From Nitrososphaerales archaeon TH526 (GTDB lineage: Archaea; Thermoproteota; Nitrososphaeria; Nitrososphaerales; Nitrososphaeraceae), in assembly GCA_014523665.1 (NCBI GenBank), contig JAATVR010000724.1, positions 1 to 10,161 on the forward strand: a DNA stretch of 10,161 nucleotides. Reading direction: 5' to 3'. Made by a program: the position numbers and the translations under genes. This document shows positions 2 to 10,161 of this stretch, one piece after another. Positions within the stretch are counted from its first letter, which is position 1, and every line of letters begins with the position of its first letter. The notes under the pieces were generated by a model that ran no database searches, was not told the origin of the DNA, and was given only the letters and a program-made list of their open reading frames with translations.

Positions 2-253
2 AATAAACCGAACACTAGATTTTGTACAAAGTGTGGGATGGTATTAACCTATGATGCATATAATGAGACTCTAGAAATTCAAAAGCAAAAAGAAGAAAGT
101 TTTGGTGCTATGGAAAAACAGGTTAACTTAATGCAATCACAATTACAAAGCCTGATTTCGGCACTTGGAAACATGAGTGGTGATAGCAAGAATAACTTTG
201 CAAGAGAACTATTTCAATCGGGGATATTAGAAGTAGAAAATAAATTAATCTAA
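2..253 (+). CDS. C-terminal end of a probable tyrosine recombinase/integrase (5' part outside window)
   Basis: The frame is open from the window edge, so the gene starts upstream and only about 83 codons are visible. The visible part begins NKPNTRFCTKCGMVL, the second half of a zinc ribbon (CxxC knuckle), followed by a charged helical tail (residues EIQKQKEES and onward) likely to form a coiled coil. A late 'P..RFC.KCG.VL' zinc ribbon plus helix is the usual C-terminal extension of thaumarchaeal XerA/phage-type integrases, which cut and rejoin DNA at att sites. The catalytic domain (R..HxxR..Y) lies outside the window, so the assignment rests on the tail alone; other zinc-ribbon proteins share this look. 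An internal ATG at 38 is not the true start because it splits the zinc knuckle from its helix. The 3' end overlaps the convergent minus-strand gene by 9 nt. Confidence 0.6.
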   Translation, partial: NKPNTRFCTKCGMVLTYDAYNETLEIQKQKEESFGAMEKQVNLMQSQLQSLISALGNMSGDSKNNFARELFQSGILEVENKLI

Positions 254-1198
254 TTTAAATAATTCTTCCTCTGCTATTTTTCTAAAACATTTGTGGCATT
301 TATACCACACACCTATTTTATGGATAATTATTTTTTCCCATTCTTCATGATCGCAGGTCCCCCGATCCTGAATGTCAACACTATCAGCATATTCTCTGCT
401 AACATATCTTTTATATTCTCTCTCCAGTAAATTATGCAAGCGTGGGTATACTTTACTATAAGCATGGATTAAAACTTGCAAAGGATTTTGATTTTTACTA
501 GTATAGAACTCATTTATTTCTGGTGGAATATTACTATTCTTGATCGTTGATTTTCTAATATTACCATATTCATCTTTTATTATCTTACCACGTTCATCTG
601 TTACTATCCCAAAAAGTCCAATTTTGTATTTATCTCTAAAATCATATGGAAGAGTAGCTAAAAATGTTTGCAAAAGATATTCGGGGGCCAAAGCATCTCT
701 CACAAATTTTATTGCAATCTTCTTTCTAACCTGCCTCATTTTCACAGTTTCTGTGGGTCTCAAAGCTTCAATTATTATATAACTAAGTAACGCCCCAATT
801 TGGTTGGAGAACTGAAAAATCACATCTTCTAATGAATTCTTTTGAAGCTTTGATTGAAATTCCCTATCTCGCCACAAGTCTTTGAAATTTGAAAAATATT
901 GCAATTCGTTAATAAATGCAGAAAATACTGACCAATCGTCATACATAACTACATGTTTCATAAAATATCTATCTCCTTCTTTGTAAAGCAGACTTTTGGC
1001 CCAGGGTTCTTTTAAATAATTATGTACTTGCTGCCTGGTGAGAGCTTTTTTGAGACGCTTTGACAACTGAGCTACAATTTGGCCCGTGGTGACCCCAGAC
1101 TCTCCAGATGAAAGAATGATATCCCGTAAATCTCTACGCTTATACTCGCCTCGGACCCCCTCCTTTCTTATATCTCTTTCGTTTCCTTTACTTTTCAA
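245..1198 (-). CDS. Winged-helix and zinc-finger protein of unknown function, 317 aa
   Basis: I do not recognise a named family. Residues about 20-77 look like a winged helix-turn-helix (RRDLRDIILSSGESGVTTGQ, then a Q/R-rich recognition helix and a short wing ending near FMK), so DNA binding is likely. The middle is alpha-helical and contains a hydrophobic stretch GALLSYIIIEAL. The C-terminus has a probable zinc site: C282 and H284, then C301 and C304 in the pattern CDHEEWE...WYKCHKC, a finger seen at the ends of many thaumarchaeal proteins. The start is TTG at 1198, the only start codon after an in-frame stop three codons upstream. A purine-rich SD-like run inside codons 12-15 has no usable start after it. 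The gene is transcribed towards the integrase and away from the replication operon, which would suit a regulator, but that is inference. Confidence 0.8.
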   Translation of the reverse strand: MKSKGNERDIRKEGVRGEYKRRDLRDIILSSGESGVTTGQIVAQLSKRLKKALTRQQVHNYLKEPWAKSLLYKEGDRYFMKHVVMYDDWSVFSAFINELQYFSNFKDLWRDREFQSKLQKNSLEDVIFQFSNQIGALLSYIIIEALRPTETVKMRQVRKKIAIKFVRDALAPEYLLQTFLATLPYDFRDKYKIGLFGIVTDERGKIIKDEYGNIRKSTIKNSNIPPEINEFYTSKNQNPLQVLIHAYSKVYPRLHNLLEREYKRYVSREYADSVDIQDRGTCDHEEWEKIIIHKIGVWYKCHKCFRKIAEEELFKLD

Positions 1199-1225
1199 GT
1201 GATCTAATCAAAAATGTAAAGTAAT

Positions 1226-1240
1226 CTTTCCGATATATAA
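1226..1240 (+). promoter_or_regulatory. Archaeal BRE/TATA promoter for the replication operon
   Basis: A TATA-like core (gatatataa, about 1232-1240) preceded by tttcc sits about 27-34 nt before the ATG at 1267. The archaeal spacing from TATA to transcription start puts the start at or a few bases before that ATG, so the first operon gene is probably leaderless; no SD motif precedes it. The core is nearly symmetric and could also serve the divergent gene starting at 1198, with a leader of about 10 nt. Inferred from spacing only. Confidence 0.5.
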
Positions 1241-1266
1241 CATTCTGAAGCACATGTAGAAGTTAA

Positions 1267-1425
1267 ATGTCATATAAAAATATCTGCATCTCTGAGACCA
1301 ATTATAAGTCACTCAAAAGAATGGGGCAAGCTGGTGATAGTTTTAATGATGTATTGACTAAGCTCTTGGCATCCAAACGTAACAAAGATCATGATAACGT
1401 TGAAGACGTACTAATGGAGATTTAA
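1267..1425 (+). CDS. Small VapB-type/ribbon-helix-helix antitoxin-like regulator, 52 aa
   Basis: This short gene encodes MSYKNICISETNYKSLKRMG followed by QAGDSFNDVLTKLLASK and an acidic tail. The pattern 'strand - YxxLKxxG - xGDSFNDVLTxLL' is the hallmark of archaeal VapB-like antitoxins: an N-terminal strand for dimeric DNA binding, then two helices, with the GDSF(N/D)DV motif starting the second. Such proteins repress their own operon and, in toxin-antitoxin pairs, neutralise a PIN-domain ribonuclease. No PIN gene lies next to it; the next ATG follows one base after the stop and opens a small Cys-rich protein. It may therefore act as an autoregulator of the replication operon, like plasmid copy-control RHH proteins. 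Its TATA box lies about 27 nt upstream, fitting a leaderless start. The motif match is strong; the role is inferred. Confidence 0.75.
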   Translation: MSYKNICISETNYKSLKRMGQAGDSFNDVLTKLLASKRNKDHDNVEDVLMEI

Positions 1426-1426
1426 T

Positions 1427-1645
1427 ATGTCTCAGCAGATTAAAGTCGATCGAATATCAGAATGTCTTACGAATAGCTGTCTAGATTGTTCAGGGCTGTA
1501 CGTTAACAAGCTGACAGGTTATAAACTGAAATGTGAGTGTAAATGTCATAATAAAAAGACATTAGAGCAACAACAGGTTGTGGGACCGGAGTGCTCTAAT
1601 GTCAATCATATACAGCCAAAAACCAACAATCAGGGGGATCATTAG
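1427..1645 (+). CDS. Small Cys-rich putative zinc-binding protein, 72 aa
   Basis: This small soluble protein has cysteines at 13, 18, 21, 36, 38 and 40 and a histidine at 41 (CLTNSCLDCSGL, then CECKCHNKK). The cluster is consistent with one or two structural zinc ions; the last third is polar and probably disordered. A GGAG motif at 1416-1419 inside the end of the previous gene precedes the ATG by 7 nt, and the ATG lies one base after that gene's stop, so the two are probably co-translated. I do not recognise a family. Its position just ahead of a helicase and primase suggests an accessory in DNA binding or replication control, but nothing in the sequence proves it. Confidence 0.7.
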   Translation: MSQQIKVDRISECLTNSCLDCSGLYVNKLTGYKLKCECKCHNKKTLEQQQVVGPECSNVNHIQPKTNNQGDH

Positions 1646-2047
1646 TTGACTGATACAAGTTTTACATTAAGCAATCCCAAAAATAAGTCTTCTGTAAAAA
1701 GCACTAAAATTCAGCCAATTTCATGGATGTCTTCTAAGATTGGTAATCAATACTGTCAATGGGATCAATTGGAAAAAGCTTCTTCTTACGTTTTTGATGC
1801 TAAGAACGAAAAGACCAGCAAACCAACCAAGCAAGAGTGGCTTTGGACAGGAGAATCAACATATTGCATCTGTACACATCATGTTGTGCATCATTGTACT
1901 GCTCATGACCGCAATGGCAGTGTAATAAATATACATTGTCATGGCAGTGAAAAGCGCTGTAACTGTGAACTCTTCAGAACACGCAGCGTAAGATTGTCAA
2001 CCAGTAACTATGACGAAATAGTAACAGAGGGGTTAGTATATGTCTAA
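1646..2047 (+). CDS. Cys/His-rich putative zinc-binding protein, 133 aa
   Basis: The TTG start directly follows the previous gene's TAG stop and is preceded by a strong SD (AGGGGGAT, 1632-1639, 6 nt spacing), so TTG is preferred over internal starts. The first 65 residues are polar and lysine-rich. Residues 74-110 hold a dense metal-binding pattern: C74-x-C76-x-H78 and H79, H82 and H83, C84, H87, then H97-C98-H99-G and C105-x-C107-x2-F. The order C-x-C-x-H ... CHG ... C-x-C-x-F matches small archaeal zinc domains of unknown function, probably with two metal sites. The 3' end overlaps the helicase-like gene by 8 nt, so translation is likely coupled. A DNA- or protein-binding accessory of the replication module is plausible but unproven. 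Confidence 0.7.
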   Translation: MTDTSFTLSNPKNKSSVKSTKIQPISWMSSKIGNQYCQWDQLEKASSYVFDAKNEKTSKPTKQEWLWTGESTYCICTHHVVHHCTAHDRNGSVINIHCHGSEKRCNCELFRTRSVRLSTSNYDEIVTEGLVYV

Positions 2048-4028
2048 AGAAATGTGTGACTTTGAGGTTACTGAAGTCTTAAGACAGAAAGGGATCAGAA
2101 AGATGGAGAAACAGAAAGACACTATCGCCATCACATTATCAGACAATAATAAAATAATTAGATCCACAATCTACAAAGCGGACTTTAACAAATCAATTAG
2201 GGAGTTAAAGAAAGCATGTTCTCCTTACATTGCTGACAAGCTGATAATACAAGAAATAATCATGATCATCTCCATGAAGTGGAATGAATTAATTGGCAAC
2301 GATAATGCTAGTAATGAGTATTCATTAAGATATGTTAATACTAGTTCAATATTCGATGAAATAAAAAAAGACAAGGCTGCTAACGGAAACGTATCACCAG
2401 AAACTTGGAACACAACCCTAATTGAAAAATACGATAATCTTATGAAAGTAATTGACGATAATTTGGCACAGCTCCGACCGCAGATAGAACTCGAATTATC
2501 TGTCAAATCAGTACTGAATATTAGAGATTGTACGCTACCATTACCAATGATAGTACTGGGGGCACCAAGCTCATTGAAAACTCAAGGCATTGAGCTATTG
2601 AGAAAGTGGCCGTATACATATTACACTGACAATTTTAGTGCCAGATCATTTGTATCACATAATACATCTGTCAAAAAAGAACAACTACAAGAAATTGATA
2701 TGCTACCAAAGATAAAAGACAAAATATTTCTCACTCCAGAATTGGCTCCAGCTTTTGCGGCAAAAGATGATGATTTAGTTCAGACGCTCGGAATAATAAC
2801 AAGAGTAGTTGATGGGCATGGGTATTTTAGCAACAGCGGGGCCCATGGAGGGAGGGGTTATGACACTCCGATGATGTTTGTTTGGATTGGCGCAGCTGTT
2901 GATATCCCTAGAAGAGTGCATAAACAACTTTCTACACTGGGCCCAAAACTATTTTTTTATAGACTTCCAAAAGAATTCTACTCTGAAGAAGAGTATTTGA
3001 AGCAGATTCAGGGTATTGATTTCGCTAAGAAAGTAGAAGCTATACATGCGGCCCTCTTTGATTACTTGAAATGGTTCGAACTATGTCCATATGCAAAGAT
3101 CGAACAAACCAGTGGTCTGCCAAAGATAGAATGGAATACACATGAAAAAGATGAAGAAGAAGCTCTCAGATATCTCATAAAGCTTGGTAGACTCCTTGGT
3201 CATCTTCGGGCTTCGGTCCCAACTTGGGATACATCTCATTCACAAGGGTCTGAATACGCATACAGCATAGCAACTATAGAAGAGCCATCAAGAGCTATAA
3301 CTCAACTTCGGAACTTGGCTCGCGGACATGCTCTCTCACTGGGAAGAAATTTCATTACTAAAGAAGATATACCAATTGTTGTTAAAGTTGTATTATCAAG
3401 TGCATCAATAGAAAGAGTAACCGTATTTGACTTGCTTCTAGCCCACAATGGCAAATTGCAGACCACTGTCATAGTTGATTCACTAAATACTTCTTCGCCA
3501 ACTGCGCTACGCACCATGACTGAATTTAAAGCAATTGGGTTGGTGGATAAGTATACCAACGCAGAATCTTCGCACGTCATGGAAATAAGATTAAAACCAG
3601 AGTTTAATTGGTTCTTGACTCCAGAATTTCAGAAATTAAGGGAGGGCTACAAACCCCACGCCCAAGGTGGTGGTGCTGATATAGAGACACAAAATGATCA
3701 TGAACACTGCAACGACGGCGACAGCAAAAGAAGCATAAATGTAGATAATATCGACTATTGCGTCACTAACAAGAATAATGAATCCGATCCCAAACAGCAA
3801 CAAGAAGAAGACGACAAACTTGTTGCAATTGAATCTTCTGGTAATGCCGATTCACAGCCACACCATTTTTGTCAACTTGACGGATCGGCACCGACCGGCG
3901 ATAAAGAGACAATTAGAACGGGTAAAGTAATCATTAGATGCAGCAAGGGAAGTGATTGGTGGCGTTGTACTGGCGAAAAGTGCAAGGCCAAGGGCGACAT
4001 ATATGCAATGAGGAGACACATATGTTAG
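2040..4028 (+). CDS. AAA+ ATPase, probable replicative helicase of a mobile element, 662 aa
   Basis: This is an ATP-driven motor, most likely the element's replicative helicase. Residues 1-165 form a helical N-domain. Walker A is GAPSSLKT at 174-181. The Walker B position reads KIFLTPEL at 228-235: the glutamate (E234) is kept, but the usual preceding aspartate is replaced by proline. Residues 255-292 (TRVVDGHGYF, then a Gly-rich loop with GGRGY, then FVWIGAAVDIP) probably hold the pre-sensor loop and sensor region. R425-L427 and the segment to D443 (LARGHALS ... ITKEDIP) resemble the MCM lid. Residues about 458-520 look like a winged helix. After an acidic, Asn/Gln-rich linker (about 540-605) comes a terminal zinc finger (C643, C648, H660, C662). 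SD GAGGGG at 2027-2032 supports the ATG at 2040; the internal Met at 22 is less likely. Helicase identity is inferred from the fold and from the primase two genes downstream. Confidence 0.75.
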   Translation: MSKEMCDFEVTEVLRQKGIRKMEKQKDTIAITLSDNNKIIRSTIYKADFNKSIRELKKACSPYIADKLIIQEIIMIISMKWNELIGNDNASNEYSLRYVNTSSIFDEIKKDKAANGNVSPETWNTTLIEKYDNLMKVIDDNLAQLRPQIELELSVKSVLNIRDCTLPLPMIVLGAPSSLKTQGIELLRKWPYTYYTDNFSARSFVSHNTSVKKEQLQEIDMLPKIKDKIFLTPELAPAFAAKDDDLVQTLGIITRVVDGHGYFSNSGAHGGRGYDTPMMFVWIGAAVDIPRRVHKQLSTLGPKLFFYRLPKEFYSEEEYLKQIQGIDFAKKVEAIHAALFDYLKWFELCPYAKIEQTSGLPKIEWNTHEKDEEEALRYLIKLGRLLGHLRASVPTWDTSHSQGSEYAYSIATIEEPSRAITQLRNLARGHALSLGRNFITKEDIPIVVKVVLSSASIERVTVFDLLLAHNGKLQTTVIVDSLNTSSPTALRTMTEFKAIGLVDKYTNAESSHVMEIRLKPEFNWFLTPEFQKLREGYKPHAQGGGADIETQNDHEHCNDGDSKRSINVDNIDYCVTNKNNESDPKQQQEEDDKLVAIESSGNADSQPHHFCQLDGSAPTGDKETIRTGKVIIRCSKGSDWWRCTGEKCKAKGDIYAMRRHIC

Positions 4029-4477
4029 CTTTAGTTAAGAGTCTAAGCGAGACGGAAACAAATGGTGATTACATACATGAGACAATGGAGCAACTTCAAT
4101 TGGTGACAACTCGGTTAAAGAAAATTTCTCCCCGACTCACGCACATTTTTAGAATTAATAATACAAATGGCTATCAGTTCTATTCTTGGATATTATACTT
4201 TAGATCAAAATTAAATTTGGTAATAGCTGATCTGTATATATTGATTATAGTTAAAGATAATTTTCTATTAGATTACTCTCAAATTATTGAATTAGTTAGA
4301 AGTAACATAATACTAATAATAAAATATACACCTCGTATGTATTTCTTCTTAAAACGAGGTTTAAACGTGAATTATAACATTCCCATACTTACTTGTGTTA
4401 ATAGCATGAAAATAAAAAATGGCGCGAGTCAAGGTTATTTTTTTCTTAAAGCAAGATATGGGGGATATAATAGCTAA
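4022..4477 (+). CDS. Orphan protein from very AT-rich DNA between helicase and primase, 151 aa
   Basis: The ATG at 4022 overlaps the helicase gene's end by 7 nt and has an SD (AGGAG, 4011-4015, 6 nt spacing). A longer version starting at 3956 is in frame but would lie inside the helicase zinc finger and is disfavoured. The stop at 4475-4477 shares its last base with the primase ATG (TAATG), so coupling is likely on both sides. The first 40 residues are polar and helical. The rest is rich in I, L, N, Y and K (for example LNLVIADLYILIIVKDNFLL) with no motif I recognise; hydrophobic stretches are interrupted by charges, so clear membrane segments are not evident. Base composition is much more AT-rich than the flanking genes, suggesting a separate origin or fast divergence. 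The two overlaps are the best evidence that it is real. Confidence 0.6.
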   Translation: MLALVKSLSETETNGDYIHETMEQLQLVTTRLKKISPRLTHIFRINNTNGYQFYSWILYFRSKLNLVIADLYILIIVKDNFLLDYSQIIELVRSNIILIIKYTPRMYFFLKRGLNVNYNIPILTCVNSMKIKNGASQGYFFLKARYGGYNS

Positions 4478-5610
4478 TGATTACTTCTATCACAGAAAGC
4501 AGAATCAACTCTACTAACCCTAAGGTACAATATGGGTTGGAGTTTATGTTAAAGCAGCTGGCCCCCGTACCGCTCTTCCCAAGAAACATAATGACGCATA
4601 GACTTGGGCGACAGATACTTGTTCATAGCAGAGAAGAAGCAATGAGATACTACAAGGAATCTGAATTCTTGGACTGCAGAATCAGCGCTTATCCACCCCA
4701 GCCCTCAACACTCAGTACTAAATATCTGGGCAATGGGTTAGCTCCAAATCTAATTATGATTGATATTGATAATTCGAGGTTTACGACAAAGCAAGCATTC
4801 GAACTGGCGGTATCAAAGATTCTCAAGAATTTTGGAGCAGAGCTAAATGGTAAGCCGACTATGATATGGTCTGGTAATGGGTGTCACATAATCCAGCCAA
4901 TGGCCGCATTTGTATTGGAAGAGTTGGATTTATTCAGCCCCGCAGTTATCAGCACAGATCAACCATCAGTTAAGTTTCTCAGATGGACGGAAGAATATCT
5001 ATCCAGTGGCAAATCAGATCCGGCTCATAACAAGACTTTGTCATTTGGCAATTGTATGTTGAGAGTACCAGGTTCCCATAATTCAAAGTGTGTTAGAGCA
5101 AATAATGGTGTATTAGACGAAGCTAAAACAGTAGTAAAAATAATACATGAATGGGACGGCCACAGACCAAGTATAATGTTGTTAATCGGAAGTTTTCACG
5201 CTTCTCTTGTAGACCGGAAGATAAAGCAGAACCAAAGAGACCGAAAGCAGCAGCGAAGACAAAGACAAGTGTATGGTTCAACGATGATGACAACGCCAGT
5301 AAGACCAGGGACGATATCATGGATTGAAAAATTGCTAACTATGTCTATATCCGATAATCGGAAGTATTGTATCTGGCGTATCCTTGCTCCATATCTGATT
5401 AATGTCAGACGGTTTCAAGACGAAAAAGCCAGTTACATTATAAGAGAATGGTTGGAGAAATGTGACTCTGTGAAGAGAGTTTCTTTTGACGGATTATCCA
5501 GAATAAGATATGATATCCAAAGTGCAAGGAAGAAGGGATTTTATCCCATTGGATGGAATGAACTAAAGACTGAAAACAAAGAACTTTTCAAGTTTCTAAA
5601 AAATGCATAA
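4477..5610 (+). CDS. Archaeo-eukaryotic primase (PriS-like, plasmid type), 377 aa
   Basis: It makes primers for replicating the element. The catalytic AEP domain spans about residues 30-235. Motif I is LIMIDIDNS, with metal-binding D96 and D98. Motif II is SGNGCHIIQP (132-141), with nucleotide-contacting H137. The third acidic ligand may be D181 in SGKSDPAHN. It is followed by RVPGSHNSK (196-204), a signature of archaeal plasmid and virus primases. A very basic stretch (about 247-264, DRKIKQNQRDRKQQRRQ) links to a helical PriCT-like domain (about 279-363: GTISWIEKLL, CIWRILAPYLINVRR, WLEKC, RKKGFYPIGW). Start choice is supported by the TAATG junction and a GGGGGAT SD at 4460-4466. A broken relative of the C-terminal domain lies at the right edge of the window on the other strand. 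The family call is confident; substrate details are not visible. Confidence 0.9.
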   Translation: MITSITESRINSTNPKVQYGLEFMLKQLAPVPLFPRNIMTHRLGRQILVHSREEAMRYYKESEFLDCRISAYPPQPSTLSTKYLGNGLAPNLIMIDIDNSRFTTKQAFELAVSKILKNFGAELNGKPTMIWSGNGCHIIQPMAAFVLEELDLFSPAVISTDQPSVKFLRWTEEYLSSGKSDPAHNKTLSFGNCMLRVPGSHNSKCVRANNGVLDEAKTVVKIIHEWDGHRPSIMLLIGSFHASLVDRKIKQNQRDRKQQRRQRQVYGSTMMTTPVRPGTISWIEKLLTMSISDNRKYCIWRILAPYLINVRRFQDEKASYIIREWLEKCDSVKRVSFDGLSRIRYDIQSARKKGFYPIGWNELKTENKELFKFLKNA

Positions 5611-5685
5611 ATGCAGAGCTAATTCTGATATATTAGAATCACACCTACTTACCCAGTCTTCTATTTAGTAACTATGTCTAACTGT

Positions 5686-5726: not shown

Positions 5727-6704
5727 ATGGCACAGTTACCATTACTAATAGAAAATCCACCATTTGTTCTGGCTCCAAACGTTGAACTCACTCAGAGCAA
5801 TGTCAAGAGAATGATTGAAGAAAGAAAGAAAGGAAATCTTTACGGATGCGACAACTGCGGCAAAGACTTGGGGTCTCCATATTATATCATGGTTGGAATC
5901 CCTCCAAGCCCAATTATGATAGATGTATTCAAGTGTGAAAGTATAGACAAGGAAGTAGACATTGGAAAGTCAATAATGTCTTCTATACGATCTGAAGCAA
6001 GAATCAATGACATTGAAAGCAAATACCAATGGATCTTTTCAGAACAAAACATAATGAGTTCAAAAATACGCGTGTGTAGTCGATGTTTTGGAAAGTGTAC
6101 ACGTCCTCACGATAGATTTGGCCAAACTTTGTTTCGTATACGTTTAGTACGCTTTGCTATTGAAGAGTATCAAAGGCGTCATACTCCAATTGAACCCAGT
6201 ATGTCTGATTATGAAAAATGTATAATCTCTTTACCTGATAGGACCAATGTACGTTGGGACCCAAATGGCGAGGTTGATTGGAATGACAATTATGGATCGG
6301 ATGGTTTTGAAGACGTAATGGGGGAGTGTTTGACTATTGCTCTAATACCTGGTTACAAACCGATGGATGCATTATCACAGGAATTCCGGGCAAATTTCAT
6401 CCAAGATAAAGATAGAGTGATTCCCAATGATCAAGAATTGACAAGATGGATGGGAAGGTGTATTAGTGAACGAATTCAATTTTGTAAGATATTTGTAAAT
6501 CCAAAAGCAGGAAGGTTTCCAATCTATCAAGACGTTATCGATGAAGAGTGTACTCCTAGATATAAGGTAGTCGTACACTACTCTGTTCCCAAGGGAGATT
6601 GGGATGTGTATGATATCCCAGACATGGGGGATCCCAGCCTAAGTAAGGCAATCCCACAATATCTTGAAAAGTTATACAGCCGAACTATGCGAGTGGTAAC
6701 TTGA
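5727..6704 (+). CDS. Split zinc-ribbon protein of unknown function, 325 aa
   Basis: I do not recognise this family. C41-x2-C44 (YGCDNCGKDLG) and C117-x2-C120 (RVCSRCFGKC, with extra C124) are spaced like the two halves of one zinc ribbon separated by about 70 residues. The middle is helical and basic (FRIRLVRFAIEEYQRRH), and a Trp/Asp/Asn-rich turn (VRWDPNGEVDWNDNYGSDGF, 175-194) follows. The C-terminal third mixes strands and helices. No signal peptide or membrane segment is visible, so the protein is probably cytoplasmic. An out-of-frame ATG at 5722 opens nothing useful. It has its own promoter 116 bp after the primase but the same strand and similar codon use, so it is probably part of the same element. 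A nucleic-acid-binding role is a guess from the zinc ribbon. Confidence 0.75.
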   Translation: MAQLPLLIENPPFVLAPNVELTQSNVKRMIEERKKGNLYGCDNCGKDLGSPYYIMVGIPPSPIMIDVFKCESIDKEVDIGKSIMSSIRSEARINDIESKYQWIFSEQNIMSSKIRVCSRCFGKCTRPHDRFGQTLFRIRLVRFAIEEYQRRHTPIEPSMSDYEKCIISLPDRTNVRWDPNGEVDWNDNYGSDGFEDVMGECLTIALIPGYKPMDALSQEFRANFIQDKDRVIPNDQELTRWMGRCISERIQFCKIFVNPKAGRFPIYQDVIDEECTPRYKVVVHYSVPKGDWDVYDIPDMGDPSLSKAIPQYLEKLYSRTMRVVT

Positions 6705-7288: not shown

Positions 7289-7741
7289 TTGGCTAAGACA
7301 ATAATACTCGTAATCTCTGGTATAATAGTAATAGTTTCAGTAGTATGGTTAGCAACGGGTCTCAATGATGTCTTTGTTGCTCAGCGAGAGGCAGATGAAG
7401 CACATACGGATGTTGAACACGCATAAAGGGAAGTTGACCAGGCACAAGCAGAACTAGACCAAGAAGTAAATGATACAGTTGCTCAGCGAAATATAGATGA
7501 AGCACGTAGGGCCGTTGAACAGGCACGACTAGACGCTGAACAGGCGCGACTAGAGGTTGAACAGGCACAAAGGGAACTAGACCAAGCAGTGAATGAAGAA
7601 GTTCCAAAACTAAGAGAATGCATAAATGCTAACGGCTATGACGCATGTAGAAATGCAACGATTGATCGGTGTGTATCACAGGGCGAATATTCACTTAACG
7701 AATGTACAAAAGCATTTGAATTATTTGAGAAGGAATTATAA
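7289..7741 (+). pseudogene. Membrane-anchored coiled-coil protein interrupted by one nonsense codon
   Basis: One frame runs from a TTG at 7289 to the TAA at 7739-7741, broken only by a TAA at 7424-7426. Residues 3-22 form a hydrophobic anchor (KTIILVISGIIVIVSVVWLA). A long coiled coil follows, built from repeats such as VEQARLD, AEQARLE and VEQAQRELDQ; the DNA shows near-identical 21-bp units from about 7514. The C-terminal part carries four cysteines (RECIN, DACRN, DRCVS, NECTK) and ends EKEL. The stop falls where the related repeat has CAA: 'gaacacgcaTAAagggaa' against 'gaacaggcaCAAagggaa'. One C-to-T change therefore explains it. The protein was presumably exported and membrane-tethered. 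It could be a recent pseudogene, a sequencing error or, less likely, a readthrough gene. The start is uncertain because no SD is visible. Confidence 0.65.
7514..7573 (+). repeat. 21-bp coding repeats in the coiled-coil gene
   Basis: Two full units (7514-7534 and 7535-7555) and most of a third match the form gttgaacaggcacgactagac, encoding seven-residue heptads of the type (V/A)EQARL(D/E). Heptad-length units are what a growing coiled coil would be expected to show. Confidence 0.7.
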
Positions 7742-9823: not shown

Positions 9824-10161
9824 TCAACGCTCGAAGACCGGGCATAAGAAATATTTTCCGCGGCTGCCACCTCTTCTATCTTCTACATCATCATGGCCTC
9901 CTATATAATACGACATAGAACAGGATTCCCTTTCTGCAGGTTGTCCAAACTGATAGATAATCCTTTTTTCGCTTCCACACTTTTCTAACCAGTTTAACAT
10001 ACGAATTCTAGTTTCCTCATCAGATAACCTTCTGATATTTACCAAGTATGGGGCTAAGACACGCCATACCCAACACTTCCGATAATCTTCGATAGGTGTG
10101 TAACAGTCTTTCAATCCACTGAATCCGGCCAGTAGCAGGTGACAGGTGCTATGGTCAGCCA
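9824..10161 (-). pseudogene. Remnant of a second primase (C-terminal domain), frameshifted and cut by the window edge
   Basis: The minus-strand frame below 10114 encodes IEDYRKCWVWRVLAPYLVNI followed by RRLSDEE and WLEKCGSEKR. This aligns without gaps to residues 292-334 of the intact primase (ISDNRKYCIWRILAPYLINV, RRFQDEK, WLEKCDSVKR). The preceding homologous part, GRIQWIERLL (primase GTISWIEKLL), lies in a different frame just upstream (about 10102-10131). Further upstream that frame has a TAG and a TGA. Downstream of KR the similarity fades, with a possible RKG..FY match in a third frame. The frame ends at a TGA at 9824. The copy is therefore a decayed relative, not a recent duplicate. 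It runs in the opposite direction to the intact primase and continues past the right edge. Confidence 0.75.

Follow-up and report, generated by a model that had tools for sequence, protein, structure and literature searches.

Six genes of Nitrososphaerales archaeon TH526 probably make up an operon for the replication of a plasmid-like, integrative element found in Nitrososphaeraceae. A tRNA-targeting integrative element is the most likely reading because the gene order is repeated in relatives, some of the related islands are bounded by att copies, and occupancy of the tRNA sites varies. This evidence supports the initial annotation, which had read the set as part of an integrative element; we infer that the window itself belongs to a tRNA-targeting one.

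The window, that is, the whole stretch of DNA analysed, is 10161 bases long and is an entire contig (G000:C645), assigned to an archaeon of the ammonia-oxidising type, of a 4.9-Mb genome in 833 contigs. The genome is a MAG with a completeness of 96.63% and a contamination of 5.26%, so the contig may be misbinned. A thaumarchaeal host, as first proposed, fits the relatives: all 13 named loci (13/13) belong to Nitrososphaeraceae, Nitrososphaerales, or Nitrosocosmicus.

A compact operon beside an integrase tail

Six open reading frames follow one another on the forward strand from 1267 to 5610 with spacings of +1, 0, −8, −7, and −1 nt (gap or overlap), bearing out the claim of six genes with overlaps or 0–1 nt gaps. 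Among ten window proteins, only an antitoxin-like RHH domain and PriX scored above the Pfam cut-offs. The contig start truncates a gene for a tyrosine integrase, of which the C-terminal tail remains (2..253, forward strand; zinc ribbon and coiled coil). The tail, initially called integrase-like, matches a profile of ten integrases built without the window (E 3.5e-9), and blastp aligned it with the C-termini of proteins in L072, L074, L080, L081, L083, and L085.

The next gene (245..1198, reverse strand) diverges from the operon. Its product has an HTH-like start and a C-terminal Cys cluster, and residues 273–315 match phrog_16024 (1.2e-5). It occupies the slot held by a divergent wHTH gene in four relatives (the G028 C17, G026 C306, G005, and G016 loci) and is likely a regulator. 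A leave-one-out profile of the four wHTH proteins did not recognize it (E 56), and it showed no likeness to a protein on contig C651 of its own genome. The intergenic region between the divergent genes (1199..1266) contains the motif TATATAA at 1234–1240, a putative archaeal TATA box judging from the letters.

The first gene of the operon (1267..1425) encodes a 52-aa VapB-antitoxin-like RHH regulator (PF02697, 1.7e-7) that weakly matches a profile of the RHH proteins of four relatives (E 0.0046). Pfam detected no PIN domain among the ten window proteins, and we do not class the gene as half of a VapBC pair. Two small genes follow. Cys-rich protein 1 (1427..1645, 72 aa) has local matches of 38–53% encoded 5′ of the AAA+ gene in L075, L078, L079, L081, and L085. 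Cys/His-rich protein 2 (1646..2047, 133 aa) matches, at 53% over 90 aa, a protein on contig C37 of the same genome (L073), 1.5 kb 5′ of a partial primase.

Between the AAA+ and primase genes lies an AT-rich orphan (4022..4477, 151 aa), a real gene with no role assigned. Besides itself it has two relatives, 61% and 54% identical. The nearer one probably adjoins a 76% identical primase, because each was found on a 2605-base contig. Compared with the small proteins in the same slot in G028, G026, G016, and G415, the orphan scored no better than shuffles. Immediately 3′ of the operon, 5727–6704 (forward strand) encodes a 325-aa Cys-containing protein with no match in Pfam, PHROG, NCBIfam, or PADLOC.

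The AAA+ protein has a predicted MCM-like fold

The 662-aa AAA+ ATPase (2040..4028, forward strand) ends in a Cys/His-rich segment. Its predicted structure has an MCM-like AAA+ fold, nearest to MCM among solved structures, and on this model the protein is probably a helicase. By sequence it is not an MCM: the Pfam MCM model did not match, and profile-profile comparison of the AAA+ core with 11 archaeal MCM proteins found no match. Some uncharacterised phage proteins fit the model with better TM-scores than any MCM.

At two loci of G003, a member of the host's own genus, a true MCM and a PolB are encoded 5′ of the same kind of primase (L257:3211-8990 and L258:3257-8962; MCM PF00493, 1.9e-35 and 1.1e-30; PolB, 7.9e-43 and 1.3e-39). 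In G028 (L081), a PolB gene (1.6e-37) lies between the AAA+ and primase genes, and G016 (L078) has a counterpart of it at 71% identity. These arrangements support a helicase role for the slot that the AAA+ gene fills. L078:8251-14474 (G016) and L081:8416-14305 (G028) represent a larger variant with an 850–864 aa AAA+ protein, PolB, and AEP-PriX; a nearby P-type ATPase gene is possible cargo.

The primase is fused to a PriX-like domain

The last gene of the operon (4477..5610, forward strand) encodes a 377-aa protein with AEP motifs I (hhhDhD/E), II (sxH), and III and an AEP fold (about residues 13–252). The AEP primase of the initial annotation is therefore upheld, and a second domain can be added: residues 280–377 match PriX with 65.6 bits against a curated cut-off of 50 (Pfam, 43.9 against 25). 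In Sulfolobus, PriX (PDB 4wyh, 5of3) is a separate subunit of PriSLX, whereas here the PriX-like domain is fused to the AEP catalytic domain and not made as a subunit of ~150 aa. One of the nearest solved folds to the primase is RepB′, a member of PrimPol-PV1. Like the window protein, PrimPol-PV1 enzymes are mobile-element AEPs with a helical C-terminal domain (part of PMC5862659), and section 19 of that paper links PriCT and PriX structurally; neither thaumarch nor nitroso appears anywhere in its text. The window primase differs in that it keeps the motif II His and its C-terminal domain matches PriX by sequence profile.

The PriX model matched 44 of 398 genomes of the phylum. Stand-alone PriX proteins of ~150 aa occur in families f35, which we take to be Sulfolobaceae, and f28; longer frames occur in the mobile loci and at a small number of other places. 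In a tree of 50 PriX domains (7 of 57 were removed as duplicates or fragments), 26 stand-alone domains cluster with AEP-PriX fusions of f28 and f19 (support 98/99 and 100/97), and the f28 fusion adjoins the f35 clade (97/88). The direction of change is not settled by this tree because it is midpoint-rooted and the program warned of long branches meeting. AEP-PriX fusions of f19 and f28 lie at L212:6510-10030 (G415) and L211:6146-7528 (G118); their PriX parts score almost like stand-alone PriX, and the L212 fusion lies behind a P-loop protein.

A different natural fusion, PriL-PriX, is found at L214:9720-10694 (G045) and L062 (G059). This 324-aa protein of family f10 matches PriL over residues 11–187 (2e-9, far under the model cut-off) and PriX over 221–310 (5e-18, above it), and it possibly serves f10 as chromosomal primase subunit.

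The gene order recurs in relatives

Among 61 genomes centred on the host, 15 encode the AAA+ protein and 25 the primase; a single genome can have as many as 19 primase matches, many of them short or with stops. A profile of the AAA+ protein matched 5 of the phylum's 398 genomes, few candidates being scored per genome. Homologues of the set are linked, not scattered as one of the two refuting outcomes named in the initial annotation would have it. Ten contig sizes were common to the best 21 AAA+ and the best 35 primase relatives (the window's left out), and none was shared once sizes were offset by 1–10 bases in either direction, which suggests that the best relatives of the two proteins share contigs.

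A primase followed within 5 kb 3′ on the same strand at 11 of 22 AAA+ loci (AAA+ matches of at least 300 aa; weak matches of 23–41 bits at four further loci were excluded). Two of the linked loci, on C142 and C654, carry broken AAA+ genes. Among the 11 loci without a primase in that range, G006 C22 has one about 9 kb off and another ends at a contig edge.

We also counted from the primase, using the 44 proteins of at least 300 aa in the available Nitrososphaeraceae loci and dropping shorter, broken, or outside-family ones. A match to either helicase profile lay 5′ of the primase in 25 of the 39 loci with at least 3 kb upstream; five of the 25, the four second-group helicases and the window, count by construction of the profiles, and two others score 26–41 bits. 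A helicase match or another same-strand gene of at least 450 aa held that place in 30/39, and a small Cys-rich ORF lay 5′ in 26/39. Upstream of the 30 primases with at least 5 kb, there was an integrase in 15 cases (8 by profile construction), a tRNA in 9, both in 8, an RHH gene in 6 (4 by construction), and a wHTH gene in 4 (all by construction). When each was left out in turn, the four non-window RHH proteins recognized one another, and so did the four wHTH proteins.

Next to a tRNA gene, four other Nitrososphaeraceae loci run integrase, divergent wHTH, RHH, Cys-rich, helicase-like, primase, and many more keep part of this order. G028 C17 and G026 C306 are closest to the window: tRNA-Ser, integrase, divergent wHTH, RHH, Cys-rich ORF, AAA+, small protein, primase. 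Their integrase open frame extends into the 3′ end of the tRNA-Ser gene. The G005 locus and one G016 locus have the same order and an adjoining tRNA-Ser, with a different large protein in the helicase slot; the ARAGORN label of the tRNA at one G016 site (Leu or Lys) depends on the intron setting. At L216, which belongs to f9, another family of the taxonomic order, the run is integrase, divergent gene, two Cys-rich ORFs, 586-aa protein, AEP-PriX. Six whole integrases of relatives compared with Pfam all match Phage_integrase, one of them over the cut-off. At L231 (G292, f18), the 3′ end of a tRNA-Ala gene (11584–11658) recurs as an exact 33-nt copy at 164–196, and the enclosed interval of about 11.5 kb includes a distant AAA+ relative.

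Some related islands end in tRNA copies and occupy their sites variably

The initial annotation had proposed a search for att repeats at the flanks. In some relatives they are present: copies of a tRNA 3′ end, 15–45 nt long, bound four primase-bearing islands. The G028 C17 island (about 18.8 kb) has a 26-nt tRNA-Ser copy (25/26), the G005 island (about 19 kb) a 39-nt tRNA-Ser copy (37/39), the G016 island (about 35 kb, without an integrase-profile match) an exact 45-nt tRNA-Thr copy, and the G028 C41 island (about 15.5 kb) a 15-nt tRNA-Ala copy. In G023, a 24-nt tRNA-Ile copy (92%) encloses an integrase and a primase fragment. Where relatives have both an integrase and a tRNA upstream, the available flanking sequence held an att copy in 3/8 and none in 5/8.

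In the window, a search with 54 tRNA 3′ ends from the loci analysed returned no convincing copy. The best match was 25 nt at 84% to a tRNA-Arg (5891–5915; E 0.010 for a single query out of 54). Matches to 20 plain base shuffles reached at most 13–22 nt, yet the 25-nt match is a candidate only, because it is imperfect and lies inside the ORF at 5727–6704. The window's element cannot be bounded, because the contig begins in the integrase and holds no convincing tRNA copy.

This absence is one reason to consider a stranded remnant, in which the operon is intact and the ends of the element are lost, so that it no longer moves or self-replicates. The far part of the window adds to it: ORFs are sparse from 6.7 to 9.8 kb, and a second primase, broken, lies at 9824..10159 (reverse strand), a PriX part with the contig end inside (NF033412, 6.6e-7, 29.6 bits, below cut-off; 49% identity over 49 aa to the window's own primase). 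The fragment, a trace of more than one copy here, points to nested remnants. Further copies in the same genome, on C142, C654, C343, and C651, are split or truncated. However, all six genes of the operon keep open frames, the AT-rich orphan included, and AAA+ and primase relatives at about 65–80% identity are common, often on equally long contigs. We therefore consider a remnant improbable, though less so than the alternatives discussed below. Elsewhere in the far part, imperfect repeats (7376–7584) lie in a stretch whose coding sequence is Ala/Glu/Gln-rich, and the ORF at 7289–7426 terminates inside them.

An Rfam scan of the window gave no match. Neither 3′ of the primase nor between the divergent genes did an origin search find origin-like repeats or unusual folding (z 0.27); only an overlapping 12-nt palindrome turned up, at 5622–5639.

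We looked for empty sites by joining the flanks of the G016 and G005 islands. No other genome aligned across the junction, the tRNA side alone being shared, and we therefore compared occupancy at orthologous tRNA genes. In genus g2, among seven genomes with at least 10 kb of sequence beyond the orthologous tRNA-Ser, the full set was present in two (G005 and G028). The other five have an integrase, wHTH, and RHH (G023), an integrase (G033 and G451), an integrase fragment (G456), or nothing (G016). At the tRNA-Thr site, G016 carries the AAA+ and primase genes, and none of six profiles matched in any of 11 other genomes (taken from 14 other matching genomes), 8 of them over at least 10 kb. The orthologous tRNA-Ser and tRNA-Thr sites are insertion targets. 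The set is not fixed at one chromosomal site, an outcome that would have told against mobility: several tRNA sites are used, with variable occupancy.

Could the genes instead serve a provirus as its replication module? Viruses commonly carry AEP and AAA+ genes, and a viral structure library returned fold matches to phage proteins. In G022 (L118:5893-16726), an integrase and two similar-looking ~150-aa proteins in tandem are encoded close to an AAA+ relative, a locus that could be viral. Yet 10 genes scanned from two bounded elements (7 of the 12 other ORFs in G028 C17 and 3 of 16 in G005) gave no match to portal, terminase, or major capsid families. A repetitive, collagen-like protein of the bounded elements matches many tail-fibre families and, more weakly, one family called "virion structural protein" (among the best 25 of 45 families). 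The primase had no match in a phage collection, and neither the primase nor the AAA+ protein, searched singly and as alignments, found a relative among viral contigs. A provirus is, in our estimate, very improbable. The primase had no match in a plasmid collection either; together with the phage and viral-contig results this leaves no sign of a free form, which counts against our main reading.

A role of the primase and AAA+ protein in host defence or repair, of the kind proposed for the ICETh2 primase-polymerase, appears more remote still. Its basis is that loss of the ICETh2 Ppol left replication of the element unaffected (reported in part of PMC7693054). Against it stand the linkage to integrases and tRNAs and the patchy occupancy in relatives, and PADLOC gave a single weak match for eight window proteins, in the HTH part of the AAA+ protein (Csa3, E 0.0016).

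Discussion

Taken together, these results favour a plasmid-like integrative element that carries its own replication operon. The plasmid pRN1 of Sulfolobus has a single replication protein, ORF904, that carries both primase and helicase. Unlike in pRN1, the window's primase (4477–5610) and helicase-like gene (2040–4028) are separate, Cys-rich genes precede them, and the primase has, by profile, a PriX-like C-terminal domain. A likeness is the small regulatory gene: in pRN1 the gene for the replication protein shares its transcript with a small gene for copy control (PMC4234260, in part). The SCCmec operon also pairs, on a mobile element, a 3′-5′ helicase with a dedicated priming enzyme; there an A-family polymerase does the priming together with a partner protein, whereas the window's enzyme is an AEP (PMC7581432, in part).

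By analogy with these two systems, we take the RHH, AAA+, and AEP-PriX proteins to be repressor, helicase, and primase. The RHH protein would repress the upstream promoter and set copy number. The AAA+ protein, as a presumed ring helicase, would open and unwind a putative origin of the element, the AEP-PriX protein would prime the exposed strand, and the host polymerase would extend. The PriX-like domain may help to hold the initiating nucleotide, replacing a separate PriL or PriX subunit. The Cys-rich proteins and the orphan could be accessory factors. The integrase would insert a presumed circle at a tRNA gene's 3′ end, which would thereby be duplicated on the far side.

The cryptic integrated elements of thaumarchaea (Krupovic et al. 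2019, PMC6563490, in part) are alike in their integrase, frequent insertion at tRNA 3′ ends with short repeats, small size, and varied replication modules that include MCM or AEP genes. The modules described there are PolB+MCM, MCM, SF2 helicase, Cch-like AAA+, Cdc6/Orc1, primpol-S3H, rolling-circle, and a PolB operon. The pair of AAA+ and AEP-PriX is absent from those named in its section 13, and the main text makes no mention of PriX. In passages of open-licence full texts (including PMC4158269, PMC12770985, and PMC5700102) we came across neither an AEP-PriX fusion nor this operon for Thaumarchaeota, and a prior description is possible.

PriX has been described as Sulfolobales-specific, and a duplication from PriL has been suggested as its source (PMC9258230, in part). 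Sulfolobus PriX appears to stabilise the initiating nucleotide (PMC10345425, in part), and the fused domain may therefore free the primase from the host's PriL. The fusion would make the role of PriX in primer initiation testable in one polypeptide, and the origin of cellular PriX becomes testable too. We raise, as a tentative and on balance unlikely idea, that the stand-alone PriX of Sulfolobales and the PriL-PriX fusion of another family of the order were drawn from the AEP-PriX pool of archaeal integrative elements. If so, a subunit of a cellular replicase would have been acquired from a mobile element.

Ammonia-oxidising archaea have few genetic tools. The integrative elements described here form a compact family with a helicase-like gene of its own and a single-chain primase, and some have clear borders; the family could supply a vector backbone for these organisms and a marker for mapping their mobilome.
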